Below, in pieces: positions 13,818 through 23,481 of a DNA stretch of 64,000 nucleotides (position 1 is the first letter of the stretch; each line of letters begins with the position of its first letter). The stretch is taken from positions 2,631,283-2,695,282 of the forward strand of contig NZ_CP072800.1 of NCBI RefSeq assembly GCF_017901155.1, in the 5' to 3' direction. The notes beneath the pieces are model-generated. The model had not been told where the DNA came from, did not search any database, and worked only from the letters and a program-made list of their open reading frames with translations. Source of the DNA: Candidatus Thiothrix anitrata (lineage in GTDB: Bacteria > Pseudomonadota > Gammaproteobacteria > Thiotrichales > Thiotrichaceae). Position numbers and translations under genes: made by a program.

Positions 13818-13850
13818 GCAGCAGGCGGGCACTACTTCCCGCCCTGCTGC
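13818..13850. terminator. Shared hairpin between convergent genes
   Basis: GCAGCAGGCGGG (13818-13829) pairs with CCCGCCCTGCTGC (13838-13850) with one bulge. It overlaps the stop of the response-regulator gene and lies just past the stop at 13804. There is no T-run on either side. Confidence 0.4.
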
Positions 13851-14461
13851 CCAGACGATGTTGCTTCGCGCACCATGTTCAACAAATCGATCAATGAACT
13901 AGCGTGCATTTTCTCCATCATATGACTGCGATGGAATTCCACTGTCTTAATGCTTACTCCCAGTTTCTCAGCAATCTCCTTATTGGAATGGTTGCTAATC
14001 ACCAAATTCATGACTTCAGTTTCACGGTCAGTCAGATTCGCAATCCGCGCCCGAATCGTCGTTAAACGCAAGCGTGCCTGCTGATTTTCCTTATCTAAGG
14101 CCAACGCTTCATTGACATAATCCAGCAACATCTGATCCTCAAACGGTTTTTCGAGGAAATACTTGGCACCTGCCTGCATCGCCCGCACCGCCATCGGAAT
14201 ATCACCGTGACCGGTAATAAAAATAATCGGTAACGCGTATTGCTGCTTGGTTAAATGCTGCTGCAATTGCAAGCCGCTCATACCCGGCATCCGCACATCC
14301 AGAATCAGGCAACCGACCATGTGCATAGTGTAGAATTTCAAAAAAGCTTCTGCGGAATCAAAGGTCGCTACCCGCAGGCGCATCGACTCCAACAACCAGC
14401 GCAACGAATCACGCACCGCCGGATCATCATCAACAATAAAAACAGTCGGCTCGTAGGTCAT
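13832..14461 (-). CDS. FixJ/LuxR-type response regulator
   Basis: The 209-residue two-domain regulator has a receiver domain (acidic pocket DDD at 11-13, phospho-acceptor Asp55 in LILDVRMPG, Lys in LEKPF) and a C-terminal LuxR-type HTH (LTDRETEVMNLVISNHSNKEIAEKLGVS...). It would be phosphorylated by a kinase and bind DNA as a dimer. Its ATG overlaps the stop of the upstream kinase by four bases, so the two are translationally coupled and very probably cognate partners. FixJ-like regulators commonly control respiration, nodulation or surface-related genes; the targets here are unknown. Confidence 0.9.
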   Translation of the reverse strand: MTYEPTVFIVDDDPAVRDSLRWLLESMRLRVATFDSAEAFLKFYTMHMVGCLILDVRMPGMSGLQLQQHLTKQQYALPIIFITGHGDIPMAVRAMQAGAKYFLEKPFEDQMLLDYVNEALALDKENQQARLRLTTIRARIANLTDRETEVMNLVISNHSNKEIAEKLGVSIKTVEFHRSHMMEKMHASSLIDLLNMVREATSSGQQGGK

Positions 14462-17400
14462 GGATTAGCATCCCCCTCTAAAGGCAACATAAAGCTGAAG
14501 GTTGCACCACGGTTTAAGTTATTGGTCGCTTCCAAGCGTCCGCCGTGGGCTTCAATAATGGAACTGCTGATCGCTAGCCCCATGCCCATACCATTTTTCT
14601 TGGTCGTAAAAAATGGTCGGAAAATGTTCTTCTCAAAATCCAAAGGCAACCCCGTCCCCTGATCAATCACTGCAACACGGAGCGCATGATCGTCGGTATA
14701 AGCAGTACGAATCCGTAACACTGCGGGCATGTCAACCATGTCACTCATTACATCCAGTGCGTTTTGTACCATATTGATCAAGACTTGTTCTATCTGAATC
14801 TTATTAATCACGACATTGGGTAACTCATCGTCCAATTCAATGATCAACTTGGTTTCCTTAAATTGCTCAGTCGTTTCCAGCAAGTGTAAGGTCTCACGCA
14901 CCACATCGTTAATATTACACGACAAACGCTCGTTATCCTGATCCTTACGGGTAAAATCTTTGGCGTAACGCAAAATATCACCCGCACGTCGCACTTGCGT
15001 AGACACCAACTGCATGACTTCCTTCAATTCTTCCAAGTCACAGCCATCACTGGCTAAACGTCGCTCACAACCCCGGATATAATTCGCAATGGCGGATAGA
15101 GGTTGATTCAGCTCATGCGCAATCCCTGAAGCCATTTCCCCCAAGGTATTGAGGCGCATAATATGTGCTAACTCTTGTTGGCGTTCCGCGAGTAGTTCCT
15201 GTGCTAATTTACGTTCTGTGTGATCCACAATAATGGACATAATCCGCAATTCATCATCAGAAAAATGCACTAACAACGAATGAATTTCCAGCCAGCGTGG
15301 ATTGCCTTTACAGGTTCTGATGCGTAATTCGCGCTTATTCACCTCTCCCACGGTGGTAATCGTTGCAAGGCAATTATCCACTGCCTGCACATATTCGGGG
15401 AATACGAAGTCCCGCAGGGAACGTCCCACTAACTCCTTACTGGAACAGACCTCCATAATCGACAAACCCGCAGGATTCACCTCCTGAATAACGCCATCAA
15501 TTGTGCAAATATTAATCCAGTTAGGTAAGGTGTGGAAAATGGTATGCAATTTCGCCCGTTCAATTTCTAAACGTGCTTCCGCCCATTTACGCTCATCGAC
15601 TTCTTGGGTGAGTTGTTCGTTGGTCGACTTTAATTGCTGATTAGCAGTTTCTAACTCACTGCTTTTAACGCTCAACTCTTGATTGACCGTGCGCAACTCC
15701 TCATTCGTCGATTGCAACTCTTCGTTAGAGGTTTGCAGCTCTTCGGTGGAGGTATACAACTCTTCGTTAGTCGACTGCGCCTCTTCGTAGGTCGATTGCA
15801 ATTCCTCGTTGGAAGTTTCCAGCTCTTCAATCGTGGTTTGTAAACTTTCACGGGTTTCGCGTAATTCATCCTCTAGCTCTTTTAAACGCACCGTATCAGT
15901 CATTTGCTCGGCAATACGATCATTTAATGGAAGGTCAACATCAGCAAGCACTTCAAAAACGATCAGACTAACTTCATTCTCGGTCAGTTTACCGGCGGGA
16001 AAATGGCTGACCCGCATTAATACCCGCTTATCCTCTCCGTTAATTTTCATCGGGATACGACGACTGAGAATGGTTTCATCAGTACGCCGGGCTTTATAAA
16101 GCATTCCACGCATATCCTGACGTAACTCACTACGAATTAAATCAAGAATTCCTAAGGCTGCACGCCCCTCCATGAAACTCAGAAATGGGTCAACATGACC
16201 ACGCACGTAAGCAATTTCCTGACGATCATCCAGCAAAATACACACCGGCTGATAGATATTTACCAGTAATTTCTCAACCACATCCTGAAGTTTTACTCGG
16301 CTTTGCTCACGCATTCCTTGTCCATATGCTGCGGGTCGCTCACGTTGTTGACGATGCTGTAACAAATACGGTGAATGCCCTTTCATATCGCCACGTCGCC
16401 GATAAAGACGTGCCTTACGATCCACTGTGGTAAACAGATTTTCCGCATTGCCAATCGCTTCAGATTTACCTAAGAACAAAATACCGCCAGTTTCAAGGGC
16501 GTAGTGAAACGACTCTAGCACCTTACGCTGCAAATTCTGGTTAAAATAGATCAACACATTACGGCACGACACCAAATCAAGGTGCGAAAATGGCGGGTCA
16601 CGCACTAAATCATGGCGGGCAAATAAAACCATATTACGGATGGTTTGAGTAAGCTGATAAGCACCGTCTTTTTGAATAAAATATTTTTCTAATAAACGAG
16701 GATCTATATCAACAACCGCAGCTTTAGGATAGCGTGCCTGTCTAGCAATAGATAATACTCCATCATACAAATCTGTACCAAAAATCTGAATTTTATAACG
16801 CGCAGCACGATTACCTAAATATTCCGATAACATAATCGCAATGGAATAAGCCTCTTCTCCCGTAGCACAACCGGCAACCCAAATACGTATTTCTCCCTCT
16901 GTTTTACCTTTTTGGCTGATAATATCCTCCATGGTACGGTGCAAAACCTGATACGCATCGGTATCGCGGAAAAAAGCTGTTACTGAAATCAAAATATCAT
17001 TGTGCAACTCATATAGTTCTTCAGGCTTCCCACGTAAGAAATCACAGTATTCATCCAACCGCTTACATTTATGTAAGGTCATACGGCGCTCAATACGTCG
17101 TAATAAGGTATTACGTTTATAATCACGGAAATCTGTACCAGTTTGATCCATTAACATCCGCAAAATTTCCTGAATCTCATCTTCACTGGGTTCGGTTTTT
17201 TGCGAAAAAGGAAACGAAGAACCAGGTTGACTGAGTAAATCATGTAATTGCTGAGCAATATCTTCAGGTGGCAACACTAAGTCCACGTGCCCAGTATTAA
17301 TAGCAGCGTGTGGCATACTGTCAAAACGTGCAGTTGATTCTAATTGCGCAATCGTAATACCACCTTCGGCCTTAATTGCACGAATCCCGTGCGCCCCGTC

Positions 17401-17826
17401 CATTCCCGTACCGGAGAGAATAATACCGATAGAACGTTCGCCGTGATTTTCTGCCAGCGATGCCAATAAACGGTCAACCGAAGGTTTCGGACCAATACCT
17501 GTAGCTTTCTCTAAATGAATTCGTTGGTGCGTATAAAATGCATCCATTCCCGGTGGAATAATATAAAGTTGACCCGCCTTCAAGGTTTGATCATGTTGTA
17601 ATTCATTCACCTGTAACTGCGTTTCGCGTGATAAAATCGGCACAAGCATACTACTGTGTTTCGGATCAAGGTGCTGTGCCAGAATATAAACCACCCTCTC
17701 ATCAATCGGTAATTTCGGCACTAATAATCTTAAAGCTTCAAGCCCACCGGCTGACGCACCAATACCCACAATAATTAAACTATCATCACTGCCATCATCA
17801 TGAGTAGAATGGGTCTTACCGATCAT
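14458..17826 (-). CDS. CheB-CheR-PAS hybrid sensor histidine kinase
   Basis: The 1122-residue multidomain signalling protein carries four parts in order. First is a CheB-like methylesterase (GASAGG with Ser25, His52, Asp143). Second is a CheR-like methyltransferase (about 210-480, with FRDTDAYQ, WVAGCATGEEAYS, VSCRNVLIYF). Third is a long coiled coil of repeated LQTSNEEL-type heptads (about 650-760). Fourth is a PAS domain followed by a HisKA/HATPase core (His904 in GIAHELNQPLSAI, then NMVQNALD, GMGMGLAI). The whole chain is cytoplasmic, with no membrane segment. No chemoreceptor or cheA gene is nearby. It is coupled to the FixJ-like regulator, so output is transcriptional rather than motility control. 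The leader upstream is structured (see 17909-18180). Confidence 0.92.
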   Translation of the reverse strand: MIGKTHSTHDDGSDDSLIIVGIGASAGGLEALRLLVPKLPIDERVVYILAQHLDPKHSSMLVPILSRETQLQVNELQHDQTLKAGQLYIIPPGMDAFYTHQRIHLEKATGIGPKPSVDRLLASLAENHGERSIGIILSGTGMDGAHGIRAIKAEGGITIAQLESTARFDSMPHAAINTGHVDLVLPPEDIAQQLHDLLSQPGSSFPFSQKTEPSEDEIQEILRMLMDQTGTDFRDYKRNTLLRRIERRMTLHKCKRLDEYCDFLRGKPEELYELHNDILISVTAFFRDTDAYQVLHRTMEDIISQKGKTEGEIRIWVAGCATGEEAYSIAIMLSEYLGNRAARYKIQIFGTDLYDGVLSIARQARYPKAAVVDIDPRLLEKYFIQKDGAYQLTQTIRNMVLFARHDLVRDPPFSHLDLVSCRNVLIYFNQNLQRKVLESFHYALETGGILFLGKSEAIGNAENLFTTVDRKARLYRRRGDMKGHSPYLLQHRQQRERPAAYGQGMREQSRVKLQDVVEKLLVNIYQPVCILLDDRQEIAYVRGHVDPFLSFMEGRAALGILDLIRSELRQDMRGMLYKARRTDETILSRRIPMKINGEDKRVLMRVSHFPAGKLTENEVSLIVFEVLADVDLPLNDRIAEQMTDTVRLKELEDELRETRESLQTTIEELETSNEELQSTYEEAQSTNEELYTSTEELQTSNEELQSTNEELRTVNQELSVKSSELETANQQLKSTNEQLTQEVDERKWAEARLEIERAKLHTIFHTLPNWINICTIDGVIQEVNPAGLSIMEVCSSKELVGRSLRDFVFPEYVQAVDNCLATITTVGEVNKRELRIRTCKGNPRWLEIHSLLVHFSDDELRIMSIIVDHTERKLAQELLAERQQELAHIMRLNTLGEMASGIAHELNQPLSAIANYIRGCERRLASDGCDLEELKEVMQLVSTQVRRAGDILRYAKDFTRKDQDNERLSCNINDVVRETLHLLETTEQFKETKLIIELDDELPNVVINKIQIEQVLINMVQNALDVMSDMVDMPAVLRIRTAYTDDHALRVAVIDQGTGLPLDFEKNIFRPFFTTKKNGMGMGLAISSSIIEAHGGRLEATNNLNRGATFSFMLPLEGDANP

Positions 17827-18188: not shown

Positions 18189-18938
18189 TTATCGAGGATT
18201 TTCGATAAGTTGTCGAATATTGGCCTCAGATAACGCAGCCAATGCCTTACGATCTAATCCTATTGTTTTAATCGGAGATAAAAAGTGAATTTCAGCTGCA
18301 CATTTCGCCTCACCCAGTATACCCCATAAATTACCCCATAATGCCTGATCATCCACGTAGGGTATTAAGGGGTGAGTTAATCCATTTGCACCAGGATAAC
18401 GCAATACAATCGGCTGTACCTGTATATCCAAATTAATTGCAGAGGCGAATAAACGCGCATGAAATGGCTGCACATTATCGCCGGTGGTCGTTGTACCTTC
18501 AGGAAATAATAATACCGCCGCACCACTTTGCAACGCTTCAGTCATCGTCGCTGTTGCCGCCGCAGCCGCACCTGCTTTACCGCGTGAAATAAATAATGTC
18601 CCCGCCTTGGCTGCCAACCAGCCCACCACAGGCCAGCCACGCACCTCTTGCTTTGACAAAAATCGTATAGGCATTTCGCCACCTAATAATGGAATATCCA
18701 ACCAAGTAATGTGATTTGCCACTAACAAGGTCGCAGTATCCTCCGGAATACCATAGACCCTAACCTTTACTCCCACAATACGTGTTACACGCCGCAACCA
18801 TGCCCGCACCAATCCTCGGTAAAAGGATTGTGCCACTGTCATTCGCAACACTTCTGCAAAAATAACCGTCAATAACAGCCCCCAAAACACATGCCCCAGC
18901 AACAAAGCTAACCGAACAACCCGACGTAATGCCTTCAT
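18189..18938 (-). CDS. Lysophospholipid acyltransferase, PlsC family
   Basis: The 249-residue membrane protein has an N-terminal hydrophobic helix (about 8-32) and the acyltransferase motifs NHITWLDIPLL (catalytic His-Asp, about residue 77) and FPEGTTTTGD (about 150). The family transfers an acyl chain to lysophosphatidic acid or a related lipid in the inner membrane. It is divergent from pstS, and the shared 176-base gap carries a PHO-box-like site. It may therefore belong to the same phosphate-limitation programme as the glycosyltransferase and PAP2 genes nearby. The main housekeeping plsC may lie elsewhere. Confidence 0.85.
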   Translation of the reverse strand: MKALRRVVRLALLLGHVFWGLLLTVIFAEVLRMTVAQSFYRGLVRAWLRRVTRIVGVKVRVYGIPEDTATLLVANHITWLDIPLLGGEMPIRFLSKQEVRGWPVVGWLAAKAGTLFISRGKAGAAAAATATMTEALQSGAAVLLFPEGTTTTGDNVQPFHARLFASAINLDIQVQPIVLRYPGANGLTHPLIPYVDDQALWGNLWGILGEAKCAAEIHFLSPIKTIGLDRKALAALSEANIRQLIENPR

Positions 18939-19017
18939 AATGATCTCCTTATAATGAAGTGAAGAGCCTATTGGCTTCTTCCTCAGAACGAAAGTCCGTA
19001 CTGAAAAAAAATTTTAT

Positions 19018-19036
19018 TTGTCACAAAGGTGTCATA
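19018..19036 (+). promoter_or_regulatory. PHO box upstream of pstS
   Basis: TTGTCACAAAGGTGTCATA closely follows the PhoB consensus of two CTGTCAT-like half sites with an A-rich spacer of four bases. It lies 78 bases before the pstS ATG. The divergent plsC gene shares the region. Confidence 0.75.
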
Positions 19037-19114
19037 TTGAGCGATTAGAGTACGCGTCAGTTCAATACTGACGGCTATTGAATAACATCTGATCTAACTT
19101 TTGGAGATTTTCAA

Positions 19115-20158
19115 ATGAAGAAACTTGCTCTAGCGATTGCTGCTGCTCTGGCACTGTCTGCTACCGCTGCTCACGCACGTGACAATATCGAAATCGTGGG
19201 TTCTTCCACTGTTTATCCTTTCACCACCGCAGTAGCTGAAACATTTGCTAAGAAAACTGGCAATCCAGCACCAAAGGTTGAATCCACCGGTACTGGCGGC
19301 GGTATGAAATTGTTCTGCGCAGGTGCAGGCGTTGAAACCCCAGACCTGACCAACGCTTCACGCCGCATGAAAAAAAGCGAATTTGAAGATTGCAAAAAGA
19401 ACGGCGTTGATGCTATCACCGAAATCAAAATGGGCTACGATGGCCTGAGTATCGCACAATCCAAAAGCGGTGATGAGTTCAAAAACTTTACGCTGAAAGA
19501 TTTGTACATGGGTTTGGCAAAAGATGTGCCTAACGAAAAAGGTGAATTAGTTCCTAACCCATACAAAACTTGGAAAGAAGTTAACGCTGATCTCCCAGAC
19601 GTGAAAATCGAAGTAATCGGACCGCCGCCTACCTCTGGTACACGTGATTCTTTCAATGAACTAGGCATGGAAGGTGGTTGTAAACAAGTTGAATCCATGA
19701 AAGCCCTCAAGGAAAAAGACAAGAAAGCGTATACAGCCGCTTGTCAAACTATCCGTGAAGACGGTGCGTATGTTGAAGCCGGTGAAAACGACAACCTGAT
19801 CGTACAGAAACTGGAAGCTAACCCTAAAGCACTGGGCGCATTCGGTTTCAGCTTCCTTGAGCAAAACGAAGACAAACTGCGCGGTTTAACTATTGGTGGT
19901 GTTGCTCCTTCACCGGAAGCAGTTATTGATGGCAGCTACCCAATGTCACGCTCCATGTACGTTTACGTGAAAAACAGTCACGTCGACCAAGTAAAAGGCA
20001 TCAAGGAATTTGTTGCTGAATACGTGAGCGAAGCAGCAATGGGTGCTGATGGTTACTTAGCTGACAAAGGCTTAGTGCCGGTTGCAGCTACTGAACTGCC
20101 TGAAATTGCTAAAAATGCAACAGAACTGACCGCCATGACCGCAGATGGCTTGAAATAA
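19115..20158 (+). CDS. pstS: Phosphate-binding periplasmic protein PstS
   Basis: The 347-residue protein has a clear signal peptide (MKKLALAIAAALALSATAA, cut after AHA). It carries the PstS hallmark segments near the mature N-terminus (IVGSSTVYPFTTAVAE), TGTGGGMKLFCAG, and the phosphate-site loop PPTSGTRDSF (about 170). It captures inorganic phosphate for the PstCAB importer. No pstC, pstA or pstB lies beside it, so the transporter genes must be elsewhere or this is a stand-alone phosphate-scavenging copy. A PHO box lies upstream, a terminator downstream, and phoB follows in the same direction with its own box. Confidence 0.93.
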   Translation: MKKLALAIAAALALSATAAHARDNIEIVGSSTVYPFTTAVAETFAKKTGNPAPKVESTGTGGGMKLFCAGAGVETPDLTNASRRMKKSEFEDCKKNGVDAITEIKMGYDGLSIAQSKSGDEFKNFTLKDLYMGLAKDVPNEKGELVPNPYKTWKEVNADLPDVKIEVIGPPPTSGTRDSFNELGMEGGCKQVESMKALKEKDKKAYTAACQTIREDGAYVEAGENDNLIVQKLEANPKALGAFGFSFLEQNEDKLRGLTIGGVAPSPEAVIDGSYPMSRSMYVYVKNSHVDQVKGIKEFVAEYVSEAAMGADGYLADKGLVPVAATELPEIAKNATELTAMTADGLK

Positions 20159-20205
20159 TAATAAACACTTCTCCAGTTAATAAATTTTAACGAAAGGAGT
20201 TTGAA

Positions 20206-20229
20206 GGGAGCGCGTGTCGCTCCCTTTTT
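20206..20229 (+). terminator. Rho-independent terminator after pstS
   Basis: GGGAGCG (20206-20212) pairs with CGCTCCC (20218-20224), followed by TTTTT. Confidence 0.88.
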
Positions 20230-20267
20230 ATTAACTAATTTATAAAAAAATCAACAAATTCAGCATA

Positions 20268-20286
20268 TTGTCACAGAATTGACACA
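20268..20286 (+). promoter_or_regulatory. PHO box upstream of phoB
   Basis: TTGTCACAGAATTGACACA has two half sites, the second weaker (TTGACAC). It lies 50 bases before the phoB ATG. A TTAAAT -10-like box sits about ten bases further on, as expected of PhoB-activated promoters. This suggests autoregulation. Confidence 0.6.
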
Positions 20287-20335
20287 CAATAACGCTTAAA
20301 TACAACGTATAAAATGGAATTCATACAGGTTTAAC

Positions 20336-21028
20336 ATGCACAACATCCTGATTGTCGAAGACGAACAACCTATCCGTACCATGGTTAGTTTCGCACTGAG
20401 TCGCGCTGGTTTTGAACTCAGCGAGGCGGCTGATGCGGAGCAAGCCTACGCAGAAATTGACCGTAAACGCCCTGAATTAATCCTGATGGATTGGATGCTC
20501 CCCGGCATGAACGGTTTGGAATTGGTACGACGCTTACAACGCGATGCCAACACCCAAGACATTCCGGTGATTATGCTCACGGCACGTACCGAAGAAGCCG
20601 ATAAAATCAACGGCTTCAATGCGGGAATTGACGATTACATCAGCAAACCCTTTTCCCCGGCGGAATTGTTGGCGCGGATTCAGGCCGTATTGCGACGCAC
20701 TCAAACTTCCAGTGCTCCCACGAATCAGCCGCTGGAATACGAACATTTGTTCCTTGACCCTCTCAGCCATCGGGTGACGGCCAAATCTACCGAACTGGAA
20801 TTTGGTCCAACAGAATTTCGTTTGCTGAAATTTTTTATGCAACACCCAGATCGGGTTTATAGCCGTGAGCAACTGCTCAATAACGCTTGGGGACGCAATG
20901 TATACGTCGAAGAACGTACCGTAGATGTGCATATTTTGCGCTTGCGCAAGGCACTGGCTCCGCACGGCATTGAACATTACATCCAAACGGTACGCGGCGC
21001 GGGTTATCGGTTTTCACCCAGCGCGTAA
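20336..21028 (+). CDS. phoB: Phosphate-regulon response regulator PhoB
   Basis: The 230-residue OmpR/PhoB-class regulator has a receiver domain with acidic pocket EDE (8-10), phospho-acceptor Asp in LILMDWMLPG (about 53) and Lys in SKPFSPAEL. Its C-terminal winged helix (FGPTEFRLLKFFMQHPDRVYSREQLL, then VYVEERTVDVHILRLRKAL) is nearly the textbook PhoB sequence. Three PHO-box-like sites within 2.1 kb support the assignment. The usual partner kinase gene phoR does not follow; a glycosyltransferase gene with its own PHO box comes next. Confidence 0.93.
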   Translation: MHNILIVEDEQPIRTMVSFALSRAGFELSEAADAEQAYAEIDRKRPELILMDWMLPGMNGLELVRRLQRDANTQDIPVIMLTARTEEADKINGFNAGIDDYISKPFSPAELLARIQAVLRRTQTSSAPTNQPLEYEHLFLDPLSHRVTAKSTELEFGPTEFRLLKFFMQHPDRVYSREQLLNNAWGRNVYVEERTVDVHILRLRKALAPHGIEHYIQTVRGAGYRFSPSA

Positions 21029-21034
21029 ACACAA

Positions 21035-21053
21035 CTGTCACAAAAACGTCACT
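21035..21053 (+). promoter_or_regulatory. PHO box upstream of the GT4 gene
   Basis: CTGTCACAAAAACGTCACT has a perfect first half site and a good second one, starting seven bases after the phoB stop. A CATAAA -10-like box lies near 21062. Confidence 0.7.
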
Positions 21054-21070
21054 GTGTTGCAGCATAAACC

Positions 21071-22291
21071 TTGGAAAATCAAGGGTATCGTTACACTACA
21101 GATGTGGAATTTGTGTCAAACCCTCACTTACAACTTGTTGTTGCCAATACCCGATTAAGCGTGGTCACTGAAACTTGGCCACCGGAGATTAATGGCGTAG
21201 CTCATACTATTAATCGCCTAGTGCAAGGATTGCGTGCCTACGGTAGTTATCACATTCAATTAGTACGCCCACGTCAAACCGCGTTGGAACAAGCGCAACA
21301 CGCCAACGATTTCCAGGAATACCTCGTCAATGGATTGACACTTCCCTTTTACAAGGAAGTCCGTTTGGGCTTCCCGCAATACCACGCTCTCAAACGTTTG
21401 TGGAAAAAGCAACGCCCTGACATTGTGCAAATCGTTACCGAGGGCCCATTAGGGTATTCCGCGATGAAGGCCGCTAAAAAACTCGGTATTCCGGTGATTA
21501 GTGATTTCCACACCAATTTTGACCAATACAGCCGTTATTACCGTTTGAGTGGTTTTTTTAATGTGGCAAAACGCTATTTACGCCACATGCACAATCAAAC
21601 GCTGGTGACATTAGTTCCCACTCGTGAGTTACAACAACAACTGAGTGCACACGGTTACACCAAACTGGGCATCTTAGAACGCGGAATTGATACCAGCCAA
21701 TTTAACCCGCAACGCCGCAGCGAAACATTACGCACCCAGTTGGGTATCCGCCCTGAGCAGTTACTCGTCACGCTGGTATCACGCATGGCGCAAGAAAAAA
21801 ACCTCGATTTGGCGTTTAGCGCGTTTCGGGCGATTCAAGCGCAAGTGCCTGACGCACACTTCTTATTGGTCGGCGATGGCCCCGAACGCAAACGCCTGCA
21901 AGCCACGCACCCTGATTGCATCTTCGCAGGAATGCAAACCGGCGTGGCCTTGGCGGAGCATTACGCCAGCGGTGATTTGTTTTTGTACCCCAGCACCAGC
22001 GAAACCTTTGGCAATGTCATTCTGGAAGCAATGGCAAGTGGTTTACCCGTAGTCACGTTCGACTACGCCGCCGCGCATGAATATCTGCACTACGGCAGCA
22101 ATGGCATGAACGTCCCTTTCGATGATAACACTGCCTTTATACAAGCCGCTGTGACGCTGGCGGGCGACCCGGTATTACGCCAAACCCAAGGTGAAGCGGC
22201 TTATCAAACCGCGCAACAGTTAAGTTGGGGCAATGTTGTCGAGCGTTTACACCACACTTTGCAAACTATTTTGCACGAGGCCAAACCATGA
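21071..22291 (+). CDS. GT4-family glycosyltransferase, Pho-controlled
   Basis: The protein is a GT-B fold glycosyltransferase of family 4. It has the N-terminal signature VVTETWPPEINGVAHT, the donor-side motif MAQEKNLDLA, and the EX7E motif in SETFGNVILEAMASG (about residue 310). Close types are the glycolipid-forming enzymes (SQD2, MgdA and alpha-glycosyl diacylglycerol synthases) that act under phosphate starvation. The 5' end is uncertain: TTG 21071 opens the frame, but a promoter set by the PHO box would start transcription at about that point. GTG 21104, 21113 or 21161 is therefore more plausible; homologues begin close to the VVTETW segment. The stop overlaps the PAP2 start by four bases. 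Confidence 0.82.
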   Translation: MENQGYRYTTDVEFVSNPHLQLVVANTRLSVVTETWPPEINGVAHTINRLVQGLRAYGSYHIQLVRPRQTALEQAQHANDFQEYLVNGLTLPFYKEVRLGFPQYHALKRLWKKQRPDIVQIVTEGPLGYSAMKAAKKLGIPVISDFHTNFDQYSRYYRLSGFFNVAKRYLRHMHNQTLVTLVPTRELQQQLSAHGYTKLGILERGIDTSQFNPQRRSETLRTQLGIRPEQLLVTLVSRMAQEKNLDLAFSAFRAIQAQVPDAHFLLVGDGPERKRLQATHPDCIFAGMQTGVALAEHYASGDLFLYPSTSETFGNVILEAMASGLPVVTFDYAAAHEYLHYGSNGMNVPFDDNTAFIQAAVTLAGDPVLRQTQGEAAYQTAQQLSWGNVVERLHHTLQTILHEAKP

Positions 22292-22818
22292 AGCTGTTAC
22301 ATAGCCTCAATGACCGCGAAATCCCGTTATGCCTGCTGTTTAACCGGATTAATCACCTCAAACCAATCAGCTTATTTTTCGCCGCCGTCAGCCGTCTGGG
22401 TAACGGGGTGTTTTGGTACGTGTTAATGCTGATGTTGCCGATGATTTACGGCTGGCAAGCGGCAACAGTATCGCTGCACATGGCTGTGGTCGGATTGCTG
22501 GGTGTACTGATTTATCGCTGGCTGAAAACGTCAACCGAACGAGTACGCCCTTATTGCTACAACGACACCATTTTTCAAAACGTCCCGGCCTTGGATCAGT
22601 TTAGTTTTCCGTCCGGGCATACTTTGCACGCAGTCAGTTTTAGCTGGGTATTGCTGAGCTATTACCCGGAATGGTTGGTATTGGTTGCGCCCTTTGCGGC
22701 ACTCGTGGCGTTGTCACGGGTCATTTTAGGCCTGCACTACCCTAGCGATGTGCTGATGGGCGCGTTTTTGGGCGCGGGTTTAGCACAAGGAAGCCTGTGT
22801 GTATTGTCTTGCCTGTGA
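22288..22818 (+). CDS. PAP2-family phosphatase
   Basis: The 176-residue integral membrane protein has the three-part PAP2 signature: KTSTERVRP, FPSGHTLHA (catalytic His) and SRVILGLHYPSD. Four to five hydrophobic segments surround it. The family removes phosphate from lipid phosphates such as phosphatidic acid or undecaprenyl pyrophosphate. I chose ATG 22288 because it overlaps the upstream stop (ATGA). Coupled to a Pho-controlled GT4 enzyme, it most simply supplies diacylglycerol as acceptor for glycolipid synthesis and recovers phosphate. A PgpB-like or lipid A-related role is an alternative. Confidence 0.85.
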   Translation: MKLLHSLNDREIPLCLLFNRINHLKPISLFFAAVSRLGNGVFWYVLMLMLPMIYGWQAATVSLHMAVVGLLGVLIYRWLKTSTERVRPYCYNDTIFQNVPALDQFSFPSGHTLHAVSFSWVLLSYYPEWLVLVAPFAALVALSRVILGLHYPSDVLMGAFLGAGLAQGSLCVLSCL

Positions 22819-22833
22819 AAAGGAGTGATCGCT

Positions 22834-23481
22834 ATGACCTTACAACCCGTTACTTTGACTGGTCATTTGGTACACCTTGAACCCTTAAGTGACCACCACA
22901 TCCCCGACTTACTGGAAGCCGCACGCGATGAACGCATCTGGCAATACATGTTTTACGGCAATCTCGCCGAACCCGAACACATGGAAAAATTTATTGCCAA
23001 TGCGATTCGCCAACGTGATTTGGGTAGCGATTTACCGTTTGCGGTGATCCATCGCGCTTCTGGCAAAGCCATTGGCAGCACCCGTTTCCGCGATATTTGC
23101 TTAAAACACATGAAGCTGGAAATTGGCGGCACTTGGTACGCCACCGAATACCAGCGCAGCGGGGTTAATCTGGAGTGCAAATATTTGCTGATGCGCCATG
23201 CGTTTGAAACCTTCGGGATTTTGCGGGTGCAATTTAAAACGGATATTCGCAATGCGCGTTCACGCCAATCGCTGGAAAAATTAGGGGCTACGCAAGAAGG
23301 TGTGTTGCGCCGCAGCGCGATTATGCCAGATGGTTTAATTCGTGATACCGCGATTTACAGTATTTTAGATACCGAATGGGGCATGGTGCGCCAAGGCTTG
23401 GAACACCGTTTATGCCGCCATAATGTGCGCGGTATTACTGTGCCACAGACAGCAGCAATACCCACACACATGCTGAATTAA
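22834..23481 (+). CDS. GNAT-family N-acetyltransferase, RimJ/RimL type
   Basis: The protein of about 215 residues follows PAP2 by 15 bases, with an AAAGGAG ribosome site that favours ATG 22834 over GTG 22825. It has the RimJ/RimL-like pattern HLEPLSDHH..., [34 protein letters not shown], and [20 protein letters not shown], which covers the acetyl-CoA site. The substrate is unknown: ribosomal proteins, antibiotics or small amines are all possible. It may be in the Pho-controlled operon by position. The end overlaps the convergent rhlE stop by four bases. Confidence 0.8.

Follow-up and report, generated by a model that had tools for sequence, protein, structure and literature searches.

The stretch of DNA analysed here (the window, 64,000 nucleotides, G000:C1:2631283-2695282) is part of the 3.55 Mb, single-contig genome of Candidatus Thiothrix anitrata (G000). 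Our subject is a block of six genes in this window, comprising an acyltransferase gene on the minus strand, pstS, phoB, a gene for a GT4-family glycosyltransferase (GT4), a PAP2 phosphatase gene and a GNAT acetyltransferase gene, and in particular the GT4-PAP2 pair, which probably belongs to a phosphate-controlled pathway of lipid synthesis. Family-level profile scans agreed with the gene identities given in an initial annotation of the sequence (PF01553 acyltransferase, PstS-type protein, PhoB, GT4 domains and PAP2). The closest named relatives of the GT4 protein came from Thiothrix species and were 78-82% identical to it (scan of a genome collection, best 80 of 124 relatives). In the closest relative genome (G062), the GT4 was 97% identical and the gene order of the window was kept.

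Binding sites for PhoB (PHO boxes) were scored as two YTGTCAY repeats of seven bases with a four-base spacer, with a maximum of 14, and both strands of the window were scanned at a score of at least 12/14. The three sites reported in the initial annotation were recovered on the plus strand, before pstS (19018..19035, TTGTCACAAAGGTGTCAT, 13/14), before phoB (20268..20285, TTGTCACAGAATTGACAC, 13/14) and before GT4 (21035..21052, CTGTCACAAAAACGTCAC, 12/14), each upstream and in the orientation that, at the sequence level, is expected of Pho regulon members. The pstS and phoB boxes are clear; they were the top two sites of the window, and the counterpart of the pstS box in G062 (L184) scored 14/14. 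A first-order Markov model predicted 0.3 chance sites per 64 kb at a score of at least 13 and 4.9 at a score of at least 12, and the probability of a chance site within the respective intergenic space was about 0.0004, 0.0004 and 0.002 for the pstS, phoB and GT4 boxes. The GT4 box was accepted because of its position and its conservation in Thiothrix, not its score. A site was found at the equal position in six other Thiothrix loci (scores 11-13), and 12 of 18 columns were invariant among the seven loci compared to 15 of 51 columns downstream (p 0.01). Searching the whole genome for the pattern with at most one mismatch gave 28 matches versus 15 for a reversed-pattern control; therefore, single genome-wide matches mean little.

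The strongest backing for PHO control of GT4 came from its relatives. The 300 nt preceding the GT4 frame and the first 60 nt of the frame were searched for a site scoring at least 12/14, with random stretches of the same loci as controls, and such a site was detected in 34 of 78 related loci (one of 79 had too little upstream sequence and was dropped). Sites were present in 22 of 33 Halomonadaceae-type loci (2.9% of control stretches), 8 of 31 Verrucomicrobiota loci (0.6%) and 3 of 10 Thiotrichales loci (3.3%). The single Marinospirillum locus had a site (control 17%), and none was detected in the Gallionella locus (0/1, control 0%) or the Acidithiobacillus loci (0/2, control 0%).

The GT4 gene is located at 21104..22291 on the plus strand. 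The GTG at 21104 or that at 21113 is the likely start codon, and the longest open reading frame begins at 21071. Its product, a probably lipid-acting glycosyltransferase, matched PF13692, PF00534 and PF13439. We compared 44 proteins in a tree that was rooted for drawing only, lacked exopolysaccharide enzymes and included the aligned parts of PimA and MshA. Twenty-five window-type GT4 proteins (94/92) and 10 Agt-type GT4 proteins encoded near plcP were sister groups (96/89). GpgS fell outside them, as did GT4b, a second GT4 of Thiothrix, and PimA and MshA formed long outer branches. A phylogeny of this kind had been proposed in the initial annotation as a check on the protein, and in it the GT4 branched beside the Agt-type enzymes, apart from PimA and MshA. 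The FPSxTDTFG motif, given for the Agt/GTcp clade in PMC8231724, reads YPSTSETFG in the window protein. By its sequence, the GT4 is closely related to Agt and falls outside the Agt clade. A search of PDB sequences with the GT4 detected only distant GT4 structures, and an Agt-type query had no PDB match at E <= 1e-10. GT4 enzymes may also glycosylate ceramides, according to PMC6445935, and by analogy ceramide may be an acceptor of the window GT4.

GT4b (L179:8606-9775; G000:C1:1978695-1979771) matched the monoglucosyl-diacylglycerol synthase model best (141.5 bits, cut-off 400). It was found near GT4 in several Thiothrix genomes and after PlcP in L196, and it immediately follows the window-type GT4 in both Acidithiobacillus loci. 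GT4b may be an additional enzyme of glycolipid synthesis.

The PAP2 gene (22288..22818, plus strand) overlaps the GT4 gene by the ATGA at 22288-22291, in which the stop codon of GT4 and the start codon of PAP2 overlap. Its product matched PF01569 with 79 bits (cut-off 27.2) and was the sole match to this family in the genome at E <= 0.001. The catalytic residues of the PAP2 motifs KxxxxxxRP, PSGH and SRxxxxxHxxxD were invariant in 24 aligned rows, as is characteristic of the superfamily. An AlphaFold2 model of the protein (mean pLDDT 95) matched YodM, a phosphatidylglycerophosphate phosphatase, with a TM-score of 0.75, LpxE with 0.79 and PgpB with 0.68. The fold search was unable to separate phosphatases of phosphatidate, phosphatidylglycerophosphate, lipid A and undecaprenyl pyrophosphate.

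The gene directly behind GT4 was identified in 79 loci (the best 80 of 124 relatives were kept and L073 gave no GT4 frame). PAP2 occupied this position in 45 loci, all Pseudomonadota by record title and including one broken copy (L014), and PlcP occupied it in 16, all Verrucomicrobiota by record title. The cultured species T. fructosivorans and T. lacustris are among those that have GT4-PAP2. The PlcP tally consists of 11 loci found in a strict window and five moved from the 17 first scored as having none, in which 108-147 nt of the GT4 frame are shared with PlcP. The two were never both directly behind GT4 in these 79 loci; in L010, PAP2 is behind GT4 and a plcP gene lies 2.7 kb upstream on the opposite strand. 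GT4b followed in two loci and a diacylglycerol-kinase-like gene in four. The latter are Pelagicoccus-type Verrucomicrobiota (L020, L024, L026 and L027) in which the gene was labelled from its reading as a lipid kinase of the diacylglycerol kinase type, and it reads as again a diacylglycerol-linked partner of GT4. In L195 (G310:C1), from a genome of the class, a plcP-type gene is followed at a distance of two genes by a PAP2 gene of 31% identity, which indicates that elsewhere PAP2 and PlcP can occur close together.

Among the 63 genomes of the order set, GT4 was detected in 22 and PAP2 adjoined it in all 22, at a distance of 3-140 nt. PAP2 proteins of at least 60% identity were detected in 23 genomes, namely the 22 with GT4 and G040; five matches at 31-34% were excluded from this count, as was a fragment of 47 residues in G043. 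PlcP was detected in 16 genomes, all with GT4, BtaA in 20 and OlsB in 20, two of the last being partial or broken. Four genomes had BtaA and no PlcP at E <= 1e-20 (G049, G052, G040 and G045), and three of these (G049, G052 and G040) had PAP2. Because G045 has neither PAP2 nor PlcP, another source of diacylglycerol must exist there. In G049, the run btaA-btaB-GT4-PAP2-GNAT (the order of L183) is on one strand behind a 13/14 PHO box. In G040, which has neither GT4 nor PlcP, PAP2-GNAT and pstS are divergently oriented, and btaAB lies at a distance of about 7 kb. Other arrangements include GT4-PAP2-olsB converging on plcP-btaB-btaA (L180) and plcP-btaB-btaA beside phoB-GT4-PAP2 (L010/L181). Outside its own genus, the link of GT4 with BtaA was not significant (p 0.07) and that with PlcP had a p-value of 0.014; these p-values ignore shared descent.

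The initial annotation had stated that no plcP-type phospholipase gene is present, which is true only inside the window. A search of the genome with PF00149 matched eight places, one of which (G000:C1:1993943-1994746) is behind btaA-btaB and 0.66 Mb from GT4. We call it PlcP-type by its PF00149 domain and its context; LpxH-type models scored far below their cut-offs on it, and homologues of it in further genomes of the class adjoin genes for Agt-type glycosyltransferases. A glycosyltransferase adjoins plcP in 16 of 79 relatives and does not in G000. The surrounding stretch (L090), a second pho locus, contains a second pstS gene (pstS2), btaB-plcP, btaA, olsB, pstC, pstA and pstB. BtaA matched PF11899 (DUF3419) with 347 bits (cut-off 28.2) and the next gene has a methyltransferase domain, as expected of a BtaA-BtaB pair, and OlsB scored 168 bits with the NCBIfam OlsB model (cut-off 350). 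Four PHO hits in L090 reached 13/14. Two of them overlap each other upstream of olsB and a third precedes pstC; the fourth is in the gap that separates pstS2 from a divergently oriented gene and points towards that gene. Of two 12/14 hits, one is before btaA and the other is inside a coding region. The btaB and plcP regions form a single frame of 486 residues on the minus strand (L090:9941-11401, G000:C1), which may encode a fusion enzyme or result from an indel in the assembly. Since G062 and L010 have two frames, an indel is possible, and the fusion enzyme was set aside.

The acyltransferase gene (18189..18938, minus strand) matched PF01553 with 83 bits. The initial annotation called it a PlsC acyltransferase that rebuilds acyl lipids, a loose label in view of the NCBIfam scores. 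OlsA models gave 142 and 136 bits and the PlsC-type AGP acyltransferase model 87.5 bits, a margin of 55 bits, with all scores below curated cut-offs (300 for OlsA). The order was reversed for another PF01553 gene (G000:C1:1282035; PlsC-type 97, OlsA 39). The genome has three PF01553 genes besides that of the window, which, with the higher score of the OlsA model, led us to reject the window gene as the only or housekeeping PlsC. Relatives of the acyltransferase were found between pstS and olsB in L212 and adjoining olsB in L022; in G000, olsB is 0.65 Mb away. The gene most likely encodes OlsA, the lyso-ornithine lipid O-acyltransferase of ornithine-lipid synthesis within the PlsC superfamily, an assignment in which we have moderate confidence.

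Both pho genes of the block have counterparts in the genome. PstS (19115..20158, plus strand) matched PF12849 with 163 bits, above the cut-off, and TIGR02136 with 162 bits, below the cut-off of 206.6. PhoB (20336..21028, plus strand) scored 329.7 bits with TIGR02154 (cut-off 296.2) and has no adjacent phoR. The other phoB (L218:1586-2287) adjoins phoR behind the pst genes of the second pho locus, where a phoU-like gene (by reading), this phoB and phoR follow 3' of pstB. The two PhoB proteins share 50% identity, and each exceeds the curated PhoB cut-off. The window phoB is a second copy, which corrects the initial annotation. It precedes GT4 in five of six Thiothrix loci, and the end of phoB is visible in the upstream alignment of the sixth (L012). 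The GNAT acetyltransferase gene (22834..23481, plus strand; longest open reading frame from 22825) matched PF13302 and had solved relatives of the RimJ/RimL type. It is retained beside PAP2 in G040, the genome without GT4, and was not seen behind PAP2 in two Leucothrix loci (L015 and L016). Adjoining the pho block, at 13832-17826, the translations read as a large protein that joins CheB/CheR-like and histidine-kinase parts and, after it, a response regulator of the LuxR type.

We infer from the sites and their conservation, the family-level gene identities, the linkage and the co-occurrence that phosphate shortage would activate PhoB, which would bind the three PHO boxes and raise the expression of pstS, of phoB itself and of a GT4-PAP2(-GNAT) operon. 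PAP2 would dephosphorylate phosphatidate, its presumed substrate, to diacylglycerol, and GT4 would transfer a sugar from a nucleotide sugar to it, the predicted product being a phosphorus-free glycolipid. The PlcP-type enzyme of the second pho locus would cut phospholipids and also yield diacylglycerol, BtaA-BtaB of that locus would form a betaine lipid, and OlsB, together with the OlsA candidate of the window, an ornithine lipid. In this way the sulfur bacterium could probably exchange phospholipids of its membranes for lipids built with sugars or amino acids, with a phosphatase gene in the place that a phospholipase gene takes in better-studied bacteria. We give a probability of roughly 0.6 to a PhoB-driven glycosyl-diacylglycerol arm that is fed by PAP2 and operates beside betaine- and ornithine-lipid arms. 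The simplest account of the neighbourhoods appears to be a GT4 that consumes diacylglycerol and a partner that makes it, the partner being PAP2 or PlcP depending on the lineage.

The PhoB-linked GT4-PAP2 lipid cassette of the initial annotation survives in its core, with sites upstream of GT4 across lineages, branching as a sister of Agt and PAP2 beside GT4 in 22 of 22 genomes; the missing plcP and the PlsC role are withdrawn. The suggestion that PAP2 substitutes for PlcP fared differently by genome. As a simple replacement it was rejected for G000, where a plcP-type gene was found with btaAB, olsB and pstCAB and where PAP2 is best read as an extra source of diacylglycerol. In G049, G052 and G040, three of the four genomes with BtaA and without PlcP, PAP2 may replace PlcP. 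A broader proposal is that GT4-PAP2 is a remodelling cassette of heterotrophs that is independent of PlcP, in which PhoB-controlled PAP2 would draw diacylglycerol from new phosphatidate to feed a glycolipid synthase of an uncharacterised clade, and BtaAB where PlcP is missing, with its own second PhoB in Thiothrix; we regard this as tentative, at somewhat less than even odds.

Several observations weigh against the proposed glycosyl-diacylglycerol arm. The GT4 box ties with three more 12/14 sites elsewhere in the window, which had no further matches. Five of the six Thiothrix loci counted as misses at a score of at least 12, as their sites scored 11, no site scoring at least 11 was present in the 260 nt before GT4 in L015, L016 and L022, and many loci of the upstream test are from sister species (Salinicola and Chromohalobacter), which makes the counts non-independent. 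The Asp of the Agt motif (TDTFG) corresponds to Glu in GT4 (SETFG), whose best NCBIfam model, GpgS, uses phosphatidylglycerol as the acceptor. In sequence and fold, PAP2 is equally close to the LpxE, phosphatidylglycerophosphate phosphatase and PgpB types and, as no second PAP2 gene was found in the genome, it may have a wider function. The copy in Candidatus Thiothrix singaporensis (L014 near 7166; G056:C1:2067821-2068276) is broken by stops, in a genome that holds a plcP-type gene. Twelve of the 79 GT4 loci had none of the searched partner genes behind GT4. The division between PAP2 and PlcP neighbours follows phylum (Pseudomonadota versus Verrucomicrobiota), so the swap may be a single event.

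The NCBIfam ranking of GT4 bears on two other explanations. GpgS ranked first with 157.5 bits and monoglucosyl-diacylglycerol synthase second, both of which act on glycerolipids; a glycosyltransferase of the PEP-CTERM/exosortase system was third with 87 bits and IagA/BgsA, which makes a lipid anchor, was fifth. All matches were below their cut-offs, those to the three lipid models far below. GT4 could, like GpgS, glycosylate a phospholipid such as phosphatidylglycerol, with PAP2 supplying or trimming the lipid, for example by converting phosphatidylglycerophosphate to phosphatidylglycerol, consistent with the best fold E-value of PAP2 being to a phosphatidylglycerophosphate phosphatase (5jki). 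We rejected GpgS as the identity of the GT4, as the score is far under the cut-off of 480 and the GpgS proteins above it (in 3 of 143 genomes) branch outside the GT4+Agt group. No deacetylase or flippase like gpgD or gpgF was present among the six window genes scanned, and extra phospholipid derivatives would be an unexpected response to phosphate shortage, making a phospholipid acceptor unlikely. A role of GT4 in exopolysaccharide or mannosyl-lipid synthesis, with its location in the Pho region due to chance, fits the third-ranked match and the fact that GT4 domains alone do not reveal the acceptor. This is very improbable given that Agt-type proteins scored 112-157 bits with GT4, compared on the same scale to 45 for the aligned PimA part and 44 for that of MshA, that exopolysaccharide-type models scored below the two best lipid models and that GT4 is linked to lipid genes across phyla.

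PAP2 might instead act on lipid A or undecaprenyl pyrophosphate, as LpxE or BcrC does, to strip or recycle envelope phosphate, with GT4 decorating the exposed position. LpxE (6ebu) was the best PDB sequence match of PAP2 and had the second-best fold E-value and the highest TM-score among the top matches, and a single PF01569 gene was found in the genome. An enzyme type present in only 23 of 63 genomes is, however, no general housekeeping enzyme, PAP2 accompanies btaAB, olsB or pst genes, and PlcP occupies its position in 16 Verrucomicrobiota loci; the envelope role also appears unlikely. Regulation offers a further alternative, in which the PHO boxes serve only pstS and phoB, and GT4-PAP2 is either not phosphate-regulated or is regulated by read-through from phoB. 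The GT4 box is indeed the weakest of the three, but its conservation in the seven Thiothrix loci and the PHO-like sites before GT4 in lineages without a neighbouring phoB leave this quite improbable.

Among the top matches listed in a mostly open-access literature, none describes a GT4-PAP2 operon or deals with lipid remodelling under phosphate control in Thiothrix. Three features appear to be new, namely that PAP2 and PlcP alternate behind a single GT4 clade, that phoB has a second copy and that the genome has gene sets for phosphorus-free lipids of three kinds. If the glycosyl-diacylglycerol reading is correct, the PHO-box-linked GT4-PAP2 operon, which occurs in Thiotrichales, in Halomonadaceae and in a small number of other groups, would be a second, heterotrophic route to diacylglycerol and an added marker gene pair for phosphorus stress that surveys of plcP miss. 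A direct test is possible because GT4 genes of one kind are followed by PAP2 or by PlcP and, in the loci examined, in no case by both.

Diacylglycerol can derive from phosphatidate dephosphorylation or from phospholipase C; PlcP is likely its main source for phosphorus-free lipids in marine heterotrophs, and phosphatidate phosphatases probably are in cyanobacteria (PMC4796936). The PAP2 protein shares fold and catalytic motifs with YodM, LpxE and PgpB and differs in its identity of at most 24% and in being encoded in an operon with GT4 behind a PHO box. GpgS, described with the gpgSDF operon of Pseudomonas aeruginosa (PMC12713373), is also a GT4 enzyme with a glycerolipid acceptor and the best NCBIfam match, but the window protein has 157 of the required 480 bits, a separate branch and no gpgD or gpgF among the scanned neighbours. 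As in OlsBA ornithine-lipid synthesis, G000 has OlsB-like and OlsA-like genes, each adjoining a pst gene and PHO boxes, although these are 0.65 Mb apart and score under curated cut-offs. The type 1 context of BtaA-BtaB betaine-lipid synthesis (PMC4796936) is matched by plcP, btaB and btaA together in G000, outside the window and with btaB-plcP as one frame of 486 residues, unlike the two in G062 and L010. PlcP-Agt remodelling is documented in Agrobacterium, SAR11, P. aeruginosa and Methylosinus (PMC8528852, PMC4796936, PMC8231724, PMC9239053). Agt1 and Agt2 of P. aeruginosa, with predicted PHO boxes, make monoglucosyl- and glucuronosyl-diacylglycerol (PMC8528852), and plcP-agt is needed for glucuronosyl-diacylglycerol under phosphate limitation in Methylosinus (PMC9239053). 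The window differs from these in its PAP2 partner, in a GT4 from the sister clade with SETFG in place of TDTFG and in a plcP gene that is far away with btaAB. It resembles them in having a GT4 gene under a PHO box paired with a gene for a probable diacylglycerol-yielding enzyme, in a genome that also has a plcP-type gene, and the products of Agt are glycosyl-diacylglycerols.

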